Notes under the pieces: model-generated
Databases searched by the model: none
What the model was told of the DNA's origin: nothing
What the model saw: the letters and a program-made list of their open reading frames with translations, nothing else
In this document: one piece after another, positions 45,414 to 51,318 of the stretch
Numbering within the stretch: the first letter of the stretch is position 1
Layout: each line of letters opens with the position of its first letter
Origin: Exiguobacterium sp. Helios
Lineage (GTDB): Bacteria > Bacillota > Bacilli > Exiguobacteriales > Exiguobacteriaceae
Assembly: GCF_014524545.1 (NCBI RefSeq)
Contig: NZ_CP053557.1
Span: forward strand, 1,885,501-1,949,500
Direction of reading: 5' to 3'
Length of the DNA: 64,000 nucleotides
Position numbers and translations under genes: made by a program

Positions 45414-46376
45414 TCAGATCCGCGTCTTTTCCAAGTAGTGTACGCTGAAATGGTGCTTTGCATCCGTAAAACATCTAATTGGAGTAAATCCGTTTTGTTT
45501 GGCTAACCATTGAAATTCTTCCTGACTGTACTTATAGGAATTTTCCGTATGAATCGTTTCCCCCTCTTTAAACGGAAAGCGCTGATCGGCAATCGTGACG
45601 ATTTGATCGATCCGGCTTTTCAGATGCATTTCAACCCGCCCCTGCTGTTCGTTATAAAAGGCGATATGTTCAAACAAATCTACATCAAACGTCCCTCCAA
45701 GTGTTTCATTGATATGCCGCAAGATATTTAAGTTAAACTGTGCCGTAACGCCAGCTCGATCATTGTAAGCCGCATGGAGCAGATTAGTTTCTTTTTTTGT
45801 ATCAATTCCGATTAAGAAACCGTCTCCCTTCTCCAGCAATTGACTCGATTGTTGTAAAAAGTCTGCTGCTTCCTGCGGATTAAAGTTTCCGATTGTCGAA
45901 CCGGGAAAGAAAATCACCTTTTTTTGTTTATCTTCAATCGGTAAATGCAAAGGGGCAGAATAGTCACCACAAACCGCTTTAATCCGGAGTCCCGGATAAT
46001 CTTGAGATAATTGATGCGCGGATTGGATTAGAAAATCTTTCGAAATATCGATTGGCATATATTGTTCCAATTGATGGAGGGAACTGAGTAAACTTTTGAT
46101 TTTACGACTGCTTCCGCTTCCATACTCAATCAGTGTGTGGACCGGTCCAATACAATCTGCAATGGCCGTTTGGTGTTCGGATAAAATATCGATTTCCGTC
46201 CGCGTCAAATAATATTCCGGTTGCTGTGTAATCCGTTCGAATAATTCCGATCCGGTTTGATCATAAAAGTATTTTGCTTGCAACACCTTTTGAGGTTGCG
46301 CTAAACCGTGTAATACTTCTTGGAGCATGTTCTGCTGATCCGTGTACATATCAAAACTTTCGACTTGTTGCCGCAT
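45414..46376 (-). CDS. egtD: L-histidine N-alpha-methyltransferase EgtD
   Basis: A 320-residue DUF2260 methyltransferase that makes hercynine (N,N,N-trimethylhistidine) from histidine and SAM, the first step in ergothioneine synthesis. It has the N-terminal EgtD signature LPKKYFYDxxG-like (LQAKYFYDQTGSELFERITQQPEYYLTRTE), IEYGSGSSRK as the SAM loop, and FPGSTIGNFNP. The start abuts the egtB stop with no gap, so the genes are translated from one mRNA. Confidence 0.9.
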   Translation of the reverse strand: MRQQVESFDMYTDQQNMLQEVLHGLAQPQKVLQAKYFYDQTGSELFERITQQPEYYLTRTEIDILSEHQTAIADCIGPVHTLIEYGSGSSRKIKSLLSSLHQLEQYMPIDISKDFLIQSAHQLSQDYPGLRIKAVCGDYSAPLHLPIEDKQKKVIFFPGSTIGNFNPQEAADFLQQSSQLLEKGDGFLIGIDTKKETNLLHAAYNDRAGVTAQFNLNILRHINETLGGTFDVDLFEHIAFYNEQQGRVEMHLKSRIDQIVTIADQRFPFKEGETIHTENSYKYSQEEFQWLAKQNGFTPIRCFTDAKHHFSVHYLEKTRI

Positions 46377-47648
46377 TTAGAGGTCACCCGCCAATCGGAA
46401 GCCACTGAACTGCCAACGTTTAGCAGGTGGGAAGAAATTCCGGTACGTCGCACGGATATGATTACCCGGAGTCACACAGGCACCGCCGCGAAGAACCATC
46501 TGGTTACACATGAACTTGGCATTGTACTCCCCGAGTGCTCCTTCAAGCGGTCGACTTTTCGGATACGGAGCATATGCACTTGCCGTCCATTCCCAGACAT
46601 CACCGAACATGCCGTTCACCGACTGATTCGCGTCTTGAACCGGAACGGGATGATAGGAACCTTGTTCCATGAAGTTCCCCTGTTGATCAACTTGCCGCCC
46701 GACGTATTCCCATTCGGCTTCAGTTGGTAGACGTTTCCCGCACCACCGGCTGTAGGCATCGGCTTCATAAAAACTCACATGACAAACCGGTTCATCCAAC
46801 TGCAAAGGTTCAACACCGTTCAATGTGAAGATGGACCAGTCACCCTGTTGATCTTTCATCCAGTAGAGAGGTGCTTTCCACTGTTGTTGCGTCACGACTT
46901 GGAAGCCGTCCGACAGCCAATGTTCAGCTTGCTCATACCCGCCCGCCTCAATGAATGCCATGAACTCACGGTTGGTGACGGGGCGTGTTGCGAGTTCAAA
47001 TGGTTCTAACCACGCTTTATAAACCGGACTTTCATTGTCAAAGGCAAATCCCGCACCCTCATGACCGATTTCAACGAGCCCCCCTTCAAATCGCGTAAAC
47101 GTAAGCGGCGGCGACTGAGCTGTTCCACGCCGCTCGACTTGTCGGGTCTGATACGCCGGCAATAACGGATTAGTAAAGAAGTTGTATTTTACATCCATCA
47201 AGATTAACTCCTGATGTTGCTGTTCATGCTGCAGTCCCATTTCGACCAATTGCTCGATGACCTGTTGAAGGGCCGTCTCTCGTTCTTGTCGCAACAATGT
47301 CAAGACTGCCTGATCGACATGTTCACGATAAGCAATGACGTCCTTGACGGTCGGACGTGACAACACCCCTCGCTGATGGCGCGGTTGATACGGACCGATC
47401 GAATTGTAGTAGGAATTAAATAAATAGTTGTATACCGGATCAAAAACATGATACGTATCGTCATACTCTTGAAGGATCATCCGTTCAAAAAACCATGTCG
47501 TATGGGCAATATGCCATTTCGGCGGGCTGACATCCGTACTTGCCTGAATTACAAAATCCTCTTGTTCCAACGGTTCAATCAAGGTTAATGTCTGATTCCG
47601 GACCGTATTGAACTTGTCTGCTAAGTAAGTCGTAATCTCTTGACTCAA
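46377..47648 (-). CDS. egtB: ergothioneine-forming sulfoxide synthase EgtB
   Basis: A non-haem iron enzyme that joins hercynine with a thiol to give the sulfoxide precursor of ergothioneine. The N-terminal DinB-like domain carries PPKWHIAHTTWFFE and QHEQQHQEL, providing the three-His iron site; the C-terminal FGE-sulfatase domain ends with FSGFRLAGD. I prefer TTG at 47648 (AAGGAAGTGG upstream); ATG at 47693 lies too near the promoter. No egtC or egtE gene is in view, so cysteine-lyase activity must be elsewhere. Confidence 0.9.
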   Translation of the reverse strand: MSQEITTYLADKFNTVRNQTLTLIEPLEQEDFVIQASTDVSPPKWHIAHTTWFFERMILQEYDDTYHVFDPVYNYLFNSYYNSIGPYQPRHQRGVLSRPTVKDVIAYREHVDQAVLTLLRQERETALQQVIEQLVEMGLQHEQQHQELILMDVKYNFFTNPLLPAYQTRQVERRGTAQSPPLTFTRFEGGLVEIGHEGAGFAFDNESPVYKAWLEPFELATRPVTNREFMAFIEAGGYEQAEHWLSDGFQVVTQQQWKAPLYWMKDQQGDWSIFTLNGVEPLQLDEPVCHVSFYEADAYSRWCGKRLPTEAEWEYVGRQVDQQGNFMEQGSYHPVPVQDANQSVNGMFGDVWEWTASAYAPYPKSRPLEGALGEYNAKFMCNQMVLRGGACVTPGNHIRATYRNFFPPAKRWQFSGFRLAGDL

Positions 47649-47698
47649 TTCATCCACTTCCTTCAAATAAAATATTCTGAAAATATGCACCATTATCT

Positions 47699-47723
47699 TT
47701 ACCCGTTTTCCTTTTAAGTAAGC
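47699..47723 (-). promoter_or_regulatory. possible sigma-B promoter of egtBD
   Basis: On the minus strand GCTTAC (47718-47723), 13 nt, GGGTAA (47699-47704) resembles the sigma-B pattern GTTTAA-N13/15-GGGTAA, with two -35 mismatches. A transcript from here would begin near or after the ATG at 47693, which supports the TTG start at 47648. Confidence 0.4.
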
Positions 47724-49730: not shown

Positions 49731-49991
49731 ATGCGTATAAATACAGATACAGAGTTATTTAAACAAATCGAATTAAAAAATAAGCACGCTCTCGAAGCGT
49801 TATACGATCGGTACGAAAAGTCCTTATACTTACTTCTCACACGTATGTTGAATGACGAAAAAAGAGTTCAACTTACGTTAAGACAAATTTTTCAGGATGT
49901 CTGGACAAGCCCGAACCAACATTCTACTATTCACGGCTATTTGATTACTGCTGTAAAACAAGCCCGATCCCAGCGCGAACCGATCCATTAA
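49731..49991 (+). CDS. stand-alone sigma-70 region-2-like protein, 86 aa
   Basis: The whole sequence aligns in texture with region 2 of ECF sigma factors: LFKQIELKNKHALEALYDRYEKSLY (2.1), MLNDEKRVQLTLRQIFQDVW (2.2, equivalent to the core-binding LQEVFLKVW) and a short 2.4-like end. There is no region 4 and no linker, so it cannot recognise a -35 alone. AAAAGGAGGAGAGC precedes the ATG, and no frameshifted continuation is visible downstream. Possible roles: core polymerase binding, anti-sigma bait, or a decayed sigma gene. Confidence 0.6.
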   Translation: MRINTDTELFKQIELKNKHALEALYDRYEKSLYLLLTRMLNDEKRVQLTLRQIFQDVWTSPNQHSTIHGYLITAVKQARSQREPIH

Positions 49992-50158
49992 TCCTTTCGC
50001 GATTTTGTTCCTCTTATATGAAGAAGAACATTTTATAGATATTCGAACTGCATGCATACATTCCTTCAAGGAATAACCTTTCTTCAAGTGAGTTTGATAT
50101 TTTTAGGGGAGATTGCCACTTTTTTTGTTTATTACTTCCTTTTTTCATTTTTTCATGG

Positions 50159-50277
50159 TATATTATAAACAATTATTGTTGTTCGGTGGAGATACAAAGT
50201 TTACACTTTCGACTCGATGAAATTGATCACAGTAGTAATAATCAGTGTGACTTAGTCATACGCAGGAGGCAACACAC
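50159..50277 (+). promoter_or_regulatory. csp1 promoter -10 and long structured leader
   Basis: TATATT (50159-50164) is a likely -10; transcription from near 50172 would give a leader of about 105 nt, typical of cold-shock mRNAs. A 6-bp hairpin GTGTGA-CTTAG-TCATAC (50245-50261) lies just before AGGAGG (50264-50269). Confidence 0.6.
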
Positions 50278-50478
50278 ATGGAACAAGGTAAAGTAAAATG
50301 GTTTAACGCAGAAAAAGGTTTTGGCTTCATCGAACGTGAAAGCGGCGACGACGTTTTCGTTCACTTCTCTGCTATCCAAACTGATGGTTTCAAATCACTT
50401 GACGAAGGTCAAGAAGTTTCGTTTGAAGTTGAAGAAGGCCAACGCGGACCACAAGCAACTAACGTTACTAAACTTTAA
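50278..50478 (+). CDS. csp: cold-shock protein, copy 1
   Basis: A 66-residue CspA/CspB-type OB-fold RNA chaperone. RNP1 KGFGFI and RNP2 VFVHF motifs are intact, with the aromatic surface WFN. It melts structured RNA and aids translation at low temperature. Copy 1 encodes the same protein as copies 2 and 3 but differs from them at several silent sites (for example CTGCTATCC versus CAGCTATTC). Leader and terminator are described separately. Confidence 0.95.
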
Positions 50479-50487
50479 TTTCCCTGA

Positions 50488-50511
50488 GAGGATCCGTAGC
50501 TGCGGATCCTC
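50488..50511 (+). terminator. terminator of csp copy 1
   Basis: GAGGATCCG and CGGATCCTC form a perfect 9-bp stem, loop TAGCTG, followed by TTTTTT. Confidence 0.88.
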
Positions 50512-50557
50512 TTTTTTAATTCTTTTCCGCCTACCCCTATCTTTTTCAAACCGGACG

Positions 50558-50680
50558 TGCTATATTATTAAGTAATTATTGTTGTTCGGTGGAGATATGA
50601 AGGTTACACTTTCGACTCGATGAAATTGATCACGGTAGTAATAATCAGTATGGCTCAGTCATACGCAGGAGGCAACACAC
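50558..50680 (+). promoter_or_regulatory. csp2 extended -10 promoter and leader
   Basis: TGCTATATT (extended -10, 50558-50566) precedes a leader of about 105 nt. Hairpin GTATGG-CTCAG-TCATAC (50648-50664) replaces that of copy 1; paired bases differ but pairing is kept. Confidence 0.6.
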
Positions 50681-50881
50681 ATGGAACAAGGTAAAGTAAA
50701 ATGGTTTAACGCAGAAAAAGGTTTTGGCTTCATCGAACGTGAAAGCGGCGACGACGTTTTCGTTCACTTCTCAGCTATTCAAACAGACGGTTTCAAATCA
50801 CTTGACGAAGGTCAAGAAGTTTCGTTTGAAGTTGAAGAAGGCCAACGCGGACCACAAGCAACTAACGTTACTAAACTTTAA
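50681..50881 (+). CDS. csp: cold-shock protein, copy 2
   Basis: The product is identical in all 66 residues to copies 1 and 3. It begins exactly 403 bp after copy 1. The nucleotide sequence is nearly identical to copy 3 and differs from copy 1 in silent positions, so copies 2 and 3 are the most recent duplicates or were homogenised. It has its own promoter, leader and terminator; the intergenic DNA up to copy 3 repeats that between copies 1 and 2. Confidence 0.95.
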
Positions 50882-50890
50882 TTTCCCTGA

Positions 50891-50914
50891 GAGGATCCGT
50901 AGCTGCGGATCCTC
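50891..50914 (+). terminator. terminator of csp copy 2
   Basis: Same 9-bp hairpin and T-tract as that of copy 1, exactly 403 bp further on. Confidence 0.88.
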
Positions 50915-50960
50915 TTTTTTAATTCTTTTCCGCCTACCCCTATCTTTTTCAAACCGGACG

Positions 50961-51083
50961 TGCTATATTATTAAGTAATTATTGTTGTTCGGTGGAGATA
51001 TGAAGGTTACACTTTTGACTCGATGAAATTGATCACGGTAGTAATAATCAGTATGGCTCAGCCATACGCAGGAGGCAACACAC
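50961..51083 (+). promoter_or_regulatory. csp3 extended -10 promoter and leader
   Basis: TGCTATATT (50961-50969) and a leader as in copy 2, with hairpin GTATGG-CTCAG-CCATAC (51051-51067) fully Watson-Crick paired. Confidence 0.6.
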
Positions 51084-51284
51084 ATGGAACAAGGTAAAGT
51101 AAAATGGTTTAACGCAGAAAAAGGTTTTGGCTTCATCGAACGTGAAAGCGGCGACGACGTTTTCGTTCACTTCTCAGCTATTCAAACAGACGGTTTCAAA
51201 TCACTTGACGAAGGTCAAGAAGTTTCGTTTGAAGTTGAAGAAGGCCAACGTGGACCACAAGCAACTAACGTTACTAAACTTTAA
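51084..51284 (+). CDS. csp: cold-shock protein, copy 3
   Basis: Third copy, 403 bp after copy 2, with the same 66-residue product. Only one silent change (CGTGGA) separates its 3' end from copy 2. Its downstream DNA is different: the terminator here is unrelated to those of copies 1 and 2, which marks the end of the repeated unit. Confidence 0.95.
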
Positions 51285-51290
51285 TTTTCC

Positions 51291-51318
51291 AAGACTCTGC
51301 TGTTGCAGGGTCTTTTTT
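51291..51318 (+). terminator. terminator of csp copy 3
   Basis: AGACTCTGC and GCAGGGTCT (one wobble) with loop TGTT, followed by TTTTTTT. Confidence 0.82.

Follow-up and report, generated by a model that had tools for sequence, protein, structure and literature searches.

A conserved leader RNA with a hairpin beside the Shine-Dalgarno sequence in the tandem cold-shock genes of Exiguobacterium

Organization of the csp array

The window, meaning the whole stretch of 64,000 nucleotides of Exiguobacterium sp. Helios DNA that was analyzed, contains a tandem array of three csp genes whose 66-aa products are identical. These are three of the five csp genes in the genome; the other two are not part of the array. 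Every copy in the array has its own extended -10 element, recognized by eye, a leader of ~110 nt, an AGGAGG Shine-Dalgarno (SD) sequence, and a terminator-like hairpin (Table 1). Read from 5' to 3', the leader consists of box 1, hairpins, a box 2 that is complementary to box 1, hairpin III, and finally AGGAGG. Copies 2 and 3 share the same product and hardly differ in their upstream sequence (50480-51083), which points to recent duplication or gene conversion. Across the genus, the size of this array ranges from one to five copies.

Table 1. Positions in the window of the csp genes, their leaders, and the parts of each leader
Feature	Position	Strand	Basis
Extended -10 TGG-TATATT, copy 1	50156..50164	+	Sequence by eye; promoter scan did not return the motif
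Extended -10 TGC-TATATT, copies 2 and 3	50558-50566, 50961-50969	+	Read by eye
Whole csp leader RNA, copy 1	50169..50277	+	Covariance model R1, 43.7 bits
Whole csp leader RNA, copy 2	50572..50680	+	R1, 43.6 bits
Whole csp leader RNA, copy 3	50975..51083	+	R1, 42.1 bits
Box 1 AATTATTGTTGTTC, copy 1	50171..50184	+	Near-invariant in A2; like AATTATTTTTGTTC of other genera
Box 1, copies 2 and 3	50574-50587, 50977-50990	+	
Hairpin I AAAGT-TTAC-ACTTT, copy 1	50196..50209	+	Sequence varies, pairing kept
Possible hairpin II TCGAT-GAA-ATTGA, copy 1	50214..50226	+	Invariant in A2
Box 2 AGTAGTAATAAT, copy 1, possible box 1 partner	50231..50242	+	Pairing counts
Box 2, copies 2 and 3	50634-50645, 51037-51048	+	
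Hairpin III GTGTGA-CTTAG-TCATAC, copy 1, 7 pairs	50245..50261	+	Sequence, folding, genus covariation
Hairpin III GTATGG-CTCAG-TCATAC, copy 2, 7 pairs	50648..50664	+	Sequence, folding, genus covariation
Hairpin III GTATGG-CTCAG-CCATAC, copy 3, 7 pairs	51051..51067	+	Sequence, folding, genus covariation
Shine-Dalgarno AGGAGG, copy 1, outside hairpin III	50264..50269	+	Sequence
Shine-Dalgarno AGGAGG, copies 2 and 3	50667-50672, 51070-51075	+	Sequence
csp copy 1, 66-aa cold-shock protein	50278..50478	+	
csp copy 2, same protein as copy 1	50681..50881	+	
csp copy 3, same protein as copy 1	51084..51284	+	
Terminator-like hairpin after csp copy 1	50486..50513	+	
Terminator-like hairpins after csp copies 2 and 3	50889-50916, 51291-51314	+	

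Two neighbors of the array were observed in passing. Upstream of it on the forward strand (49731-49991) is encoded an orphan protein of 86 aa whose similarity to ECF sigma factors is confined to their first part; its best match covers residues 3-64 with an E value of 5.5e-7, far under the family cut-off, and there is no Pfam match at E<=0.001. The orphan occupies this place in 17 of the 18 leader-bearing genomes, with identities down to ~36%, and is absent from the examined loci of one genome (G006). A sigma-like protein with domain 2 alone, next to cold-shock genes, merits closer study. Farther away, on the reverse strand (45414-47711), lie adjacent egtD and egtB genes for ergothioneine biosynthesis, which score 429 vs 291 and 564 vs 360 bits against their NCBIfam cut-offs. 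The ergothioneine pathway is uncommon in Bacillota.

Hairpin III in the window copies and within Exiguobacterium

A hairpin at each of the three csp ribosome binding sites had been proposed in an earlier, sequence-only reading of this DNA, and such a hairpin is indeed present at all three sites, separated from AGGAGG by the two bases GC in every copy. That reading counted six conserved pairs. Pairing is kept in all copies, although the count itself needs correction: because a C and a G that had been assigned to the loop also pair, the stem has seven pairs and a three-base loop. The two varying pairs had been described correctly, with the terminal one (pair 6) being A-U, G-U, and G-C in copies 1, 2, and 3, and the second one (pair 3) being G-U, A-U, and A-U. 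The sole true two-sided change among the window copies is that of pair 6 from A-U in copy 1 to G-C in copy 3.

The argument that these compensatory changes reveal a conserved structure points in the right direction but carries little weight. Three substitutions separate the stems. When three random substitutions are introduced into the stem by simulation, all seven pairs survive in 2.4% of cases with kappa 1, 4.3% with kappa 2, 8.2% with kappa 4, and 14.7% with kappa 10, which amounts to a 2-15% chance that pairing would persist. Moreover, copies 2 and 3 are such close duplicates that the three copies are far from being three independent tests. The window leaders as wholes barely fold better than dinucleotide shuffles, with z scores of -0.3, -1.3, and -2.2. 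The three window copies alone are weak evidence, and it is the relatives that settle hairpin III as real.

Within the genus, 19 Exiguobacterium genomes were searched, the window genome among them, using R1, a covariance model made from leaders of other genera as described below. The leader was found in 18 of these genomes at 34 places (E<=0.001), and at the same threshold there was no match in the genus genome G018 or in 19 genomes of one sister genus. Covariation analysis of the 21 distinct Exiguobacterium leaders upholds the proposed stem, given that all 142 of its 142 alignment cells are paired. Two-sided changes occur at two pairs; pair 3 appears as G-C in nine leaders, A-U in seven, and G-U in five, and pair 6 as A-U in 14, G-U in four, and G-C in one. 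Neither the covariation score nor the paired percentage of hairpin III was equaled by any of 500 shuffles, and registers slid along the leader were at most 69% paired. Two other counts do not rise above the shuffles, as 42 of 500 matched its two pairs with two-sided changes and 138 of 500 its six further pair types. Among the remaining stems, hairpin I likewise varies in sequence while staying paired, with a mean longest stem of 5.93 in 14 distinct Exiguobacterium versions vs 3.81 (sd 0.22) after shuffling. The possible hairpin II is invariant in A2, and thus covariation offers no evidence for or against it.

A leader family shared with other genera

The csp loci considered in other genera were the best 80 of at least 595 relatives. 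Half of these (40 of 80) passed patterns for box 1 and box 2 and served as the training set for R1, which therefore contains leaders of other genera only, without coding sequence and without Exiguobacterium. These 40 loci, from Peribacillus, Neobacillus, Sporosarcina, Planococcus, Bacillus, and others, are laid out in the same way: AATTATTTTTGTTCGG, then a variable stretch, GAGCAAGGATAGTAA, a hairpin (for example, GTGTG/CACAC or GTATGC/GCATAC), and AGGAGG. In the 3.15-Mb window genome, where 98 of 998 first-look candidates were scored, R1 gives three matches at E<=0.001. These are precisely the three copies (E 3.7e-6 to 8.2e-6), so that the model sets the array genes apart from the two other csp genes of the genome.

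In the wider class, R1 matches 88 of 398 sampled genomes (18 of them from the window's genus) and 27 of 145 genera at E<=1e-4. Among the 40 loci outside the training set, two (L014 and L048) are matched strongly. Two untrained Gottfriedia loci have E values of 5.8e-5 and 1.6e-4, untrained loci of Trichococcus, Pisciglobus, and Lacticigenium are matched at the csp start with E 0.004-0.024, and matches for the remaining untrained loci are weaker, similar, or absent. The class-wide matches comprise the 34 places in the window's genus and 114 others, 110 of which were analyzed. A csp start is present in 109 of these 110 loci from other genera, and in 79 of the 80 short match loci it necessarily adjoins the leader; the remaining short locus was taken from the wrong side.

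Hairpin III is preserved in this larger sample by several measures. With 13 presumed near-duplicates excluded, 97 of the 110 loci were aligned to R1, and the resulting 94 distinct rows have two-sided changes at all five modeled pairs and 98.7% of cells paired, figures that lean towards the model to which the rows were aligned. The 40 training leaders have two-sided changes at five of six pairs. A plain MAFFT alignment of these 40 leaves 14% of hairpin III cells unpaired, with some leaders visibly out of register. For a model-free test, strict patterns retained 87 of the 110 loci and yielded 72 distinct regions. The longest stem between box 2 and the SD averages 5.92 in these regions vs 4.02 (sd 0.10) in single-base shuffles, and 66 of the 67 stems of at least 5 bp end 0-3 nt before the SD. 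Across the family, hairpin III mostly has 5-9 pairs, lies 0-3 nt before the SD, and excludes it. The window leaders share the features of the R1 family, namely box 1, box 2, and an SD-proximal hairpin before csp. Overall, each csp gene of the array carries its own leader of ~110 nt, which belongs to an RNA family conserved in Bacillus-like csp genes.

The two other csp genes of Exiguobacterium (L132-L149 and L150-L168) have different leaders. In one type, a small hairpin, mostly CATATGC..GCATATG, lies ~30-50 nt ahead of the start and is accompanied by GGAGG, and the second has a GAGAGCTTGCTCTC-type hairpin and GAAGGGAA. R1 found no match in those non-array leaders that were given to its scan, and either could be another type of csp leader.

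Relation to Rfam families and to known csp leaders

The cspA thermoregulator family of Rfam (RF01766) exceeds its gathering threshold of 78 bits at copies 1 and 3, with 94 and 80 bits, and is absent at copy 2. By itself, the coding part of copy 1 reaches 100.3 bits, and the posterior in the leader is low. When the copy 1 leader alone (50150-50280) was searched, Rfam returned nothing for cspA even at E up to 10. Membership of the leader in this family was therefore rejected, as the copy 1 match is carried by coding sequence and terminator, and this match to RF01766 means "csp coding sequence" rather than "cspA-type leader." The Exiguobacterium leaders resemble the E. coli cspA thermoregulator in being part of a csp mRNA that is probably cold-regulated and differ from it in that the copy 1 leader alone is not matched.

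Other parallels exist among Gram-positive bacteria. The 5' UTRs of B. subtilis cspB and cspC are csp leaders with two conserved "cold shock boxes" (PMC8307031), and these can be likened to box 1 and box 2 by description alone. The portions of that report consulted here mention neither a hairpin near the RBS nor covariation in the B. subtilis csp leaders (PMC8307031). A suppressor mutation is described there at -65 of B. subtilis cspC (PMC8307031), and it can be placed on the present family only with uncertainty, position -65 of the B. halotolerans L069 leader being C. The L069 leader has the same layout and was part of the R1 training set; given alone to Rfam, it had only a chance-level match to another family. 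Its gene presumably encodes a cspC-type protein.

Thermoswitches have also been reported for Listeria cspA and for S. aureus cspB and cspC, as summarized in a review (PMC8155936). The L. monocytogenes cspA leader, a thermoswitch attributed to Ignatov (2020), is likewise ~110 nt long and favors translation in the cold, a likeness drawn from its description alone; its hairpins are disrupted to expose the SD, whereas here the SD lies outside hairpin III (PMC8155936). Switches of the Listeria and S. aureus type have two alternative folds that exchange with temperature, the RBS being closed in the warm. Here, box 1 has two competing partners, and a leader with 36 coding bases is not predicted to switch between 5 and 45 C; for the Exiguobacterium leader alone, pairing of box 1 with box 2 is predicted to be more favored at 10 C than it is at 37 C. 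The S. aureus cspB and cspC leaders, as Catalan-Moreno is said to have reported in 2021, take open and locked forms with an anti-RBS strand in a long hairpin. By description alone, this strand is much like box 1. One Jeotgalicoccus locus (L045), which we take to be the only staphylococcal relative in the sample, went unmatched by R1 even at E up to 1.

A term search of the main text of four RNA discovery papers (PMC2864571, PMC8632094, PMC11109978, and PMC6429828) found neither csp nor cold shock, and no report of covariation in such csp leaders was recognized in the literature searched, which covers little of the subscription literature. Most likely, the leader belongs to an already known kind of RNA, the cold-regulatory leaders of csp genes.

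Pairing partners of box 1

Box 1 can pair with two parts of the mRNA, as box 2 (GAGCAAGGATAGTAA) resembles the start of the coding sequence (GAACAAGGTAAAGTAA) in the boxed csp genes of L006-L081; similarly, the coding start GAACAAGG-UAAAGUAA resembles the leader segment GAGCAAGG-AUAGUAA. Outside Exiguobacterium, in the 40 training leaders, box 1 can form 13 pairs with box 2, a helix that RNAalifold picks unaided. There, 98.3% of the cells are paired with two-sided changes at two of the 13 pairs. In Exiguobacterium the register is different, 99.6% of the cells are paired, and all changes are one-sided. The second pairing, between box 1 and the coding start, receives no support for a constraint from the comparative data, as no two-sided change was found and an unpaired cell is present in six of 21 Exiguobacterium leaders and nine of 40 others.

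Folding predictions suggest that in Exiguobacterium the balance between the two partners depends on how much of the RNA has been made. An Exiguobacterium RNA that ends just past box 2 forms on average 8.7 pairs between box 1 and box 2 at 10 C and 9.8 at 37 C, and a leader extending up to the start codon forms 7.2 and 2.8, respectively. When 36 coding bases are added, pairing of box 1 with the start is favored by 4.7 kcal/mol at 10 C and 4.1 kcal/mol at 37 C. The predicted drop from 7.2 to 2.8 pairs is the single computed hint of cold dependence. In other genera, pairing of box 1 with box 2 is predicted to win on average by 3-5 kcal/mol, and thus the same box 1 switch cannot be general; predicted access to the SD and AUG there rises on warming, opposite to what a cold gene would need. 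Across 61 leaders with 36 coding bases, ensemble folding at 5, 15, 25, 37, and 45 C produced no two-state temperature switch.

A possible role for hairpin III and box 1

When formation of hairpin III is penalized in folding predictions for the 21 Exiguobacterium leaders, mean access to the SD falls from 0.77 to 0.52 at 10 C and from 0.76 to 0.56 at 37 C. The SD of copies 2 and 3 is then predicted to pair with the hairpin's own CUC, which spans the closing pair and loop; that of copy 1, whose loop has CUU, finds its partners among C and U bases farther upstream. The effect is small in the 40 leaders of other genera (from 0.63 to 0.59 at 10 C and from 0.73 to 0.68 at 37 C). Because SD access falls when the hairpin is penalized, hairpin III is probably an insulator that keeps the ribosome site open and not itself a temperature gate.

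A mechanism can be sketched in which hairpin III would lock sequence otherwise able to pair with AGGAGG (the CUC in copies 2 and 3), leaving the ribosome site open, and regulation would lie in box 1, by analogy with known csp thermoswitches. During transcription, box 1 would meet box 2 first, and the start would be free. In the longer Exiguobacterium RNA, box 1 would come to prefer the start-codon region, pairing UUGUUC with GAACAA. Slow refolding in the cold might then allow the open form to stay, and faster refolding in the warm might give the closed form. The Csp protein itself may also bind the U-rich box. The box 1 switch is held at low confidence, and any cold switch would be kinetic or protein-assisted, to judge from the folding predictions. 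We lean slightly towards the combination of a conserved csp leader family, an insulating hairpin III, and regulation in box 1.

Alternative explanations

Protein binding might account for much of the leader. Csp could regulate its own synthesis through box 1, which is U-rich and nearly invariant, and hairpin III would then hold the shape of the RNA or block nucleases. CspA of E. coli acts on its own transcript (PMC9947658), and in B. subtilis point mutations in the cspC leader act as suppressors in a cspB cspD double mutant (PMC8307031). The suppressor mutations lie in or near a cold shock box, and one of them approximately doubles reporter activity (PMC8307031). However, protein binding alone leaves unexplained the complementarity that is kept between box 1 and box 2, and as a full account it is tentative and somewhat unlikely.

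Another possibility is that the target of the leader in the cold is not translation but transcription or the stability of the mRNA, with the leader serving, for instance, as a 5' stabilizer. In its favor, the cold effect seen in E. antarcticum B7 is one on transcripts: four csp genes with consecutive numbers rise at 0 C vs 37 C, with log2 changes of 1.9 to 3.6, and the two other csp genes fall (PMC4247613). Since these data are mRNA levels, promoter or stability effects could explain them. The cold-induced genes are taken to be of the array type; two genomes in the sample (G005 and G008) have four leader-bearing array copies and two other csp genes, the same tally as in B7. Six csp genes have been counted in B7 and in E. 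sibiricum 255, as against three in other species compared (PMC5833320), and E. sibiricum has been studied from -2.5 to 40 C (PMC2615787). Yet the position of the hairpin, 0-3 nt from the SD in nearly all stems of the model-free test, points to translation initiation, and an effect confined to transcription or stability is considered improbable. Based on the expression data and on analogy, the leader as a whole could well be a regulator that responds to cold.

The sequence-only reading had favored a temperature-dependent gate on translation. In zipper RNA thermometers of the ROSE and fourU types, the SD is part of a hairpin whose melting falls within the growth range. Hairpin III could be imagined to work in this manner, melting or forming with temperature and so gating ribosome entry, given that it is conserved and stands directly before the SD of cold-shock genes. 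However, it is unlike the ROSE and fourU elements in that both AGGAGG and AUG lie outside the stem, and the isolated window hairpins are predicted to be folded up to 50-60 C, with a probability of 0.88-0.97 for the third pair of the stem even at 60 C in the three copies. Hairpin III cannot be the proposed gate for these reasons. In addition, its loss is predicted to lower rather than raise SD access, and opening on warming would be the wrong direction for a cold-shock gene. Hairpin III as a melting thermometer was therefore rejected, and the reading is regarded as very unlikely.

Least credible of all is the view that the inverted repeat is a DNA operator rather than an RNA structure, despite the palindromic character of GTGTG/CACAC, as the repeat is found ~75 nt past the presumed start and changes in sequence while complementarity persists. 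Furthermore, a palindromic operator should treat G-U and A-C combinations alike, whereas an RNA stem accepts G-U alone. Exiguobacterium has 15 G-U and no A-C, and the model-aligned set 26 and none; in a symmetric stem search, G-U outnumbers A-C by 34 to 8 overall, 17 to 5 in the independent set, and 9 to 0 in Exiguobacterium, with P values that ignore relatedness. Two counts, 13 to 9 in the plain MAFFT alignment of 40 leaders and 8 to 3 in the symmetric search of the training set, are not significant; the operator was rejected all the same. The earlier claim that the hairpin is a functional RNA element is thus supported by covariation in the genus and in related genera, and by this asymmetry.

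Implications for csp regulation

A more ambitious version of the preferred reading is unlikely to hold in every part. It would make the leader a csp leader class of Bacillus-like genera without an Rfam 15 match in the two leaders tested, in which a covarying insulator hairpin stands beside the SD, box 1 chooses between GAGCAAGG-AUAGUAA and the coding start, and the speed of transcription and refolding, rather than melting, reads temperature.

Leader-based cold control of csp genes is established in E. coli and has been reported for Listeria and Staphylococcus, and neither of the two leaders given alone to Rfam matched a family. The leader captured by R1 offers a testable, general description of csp control in Gram-positive bacteria, for which Exiguobacterium is a handy system.
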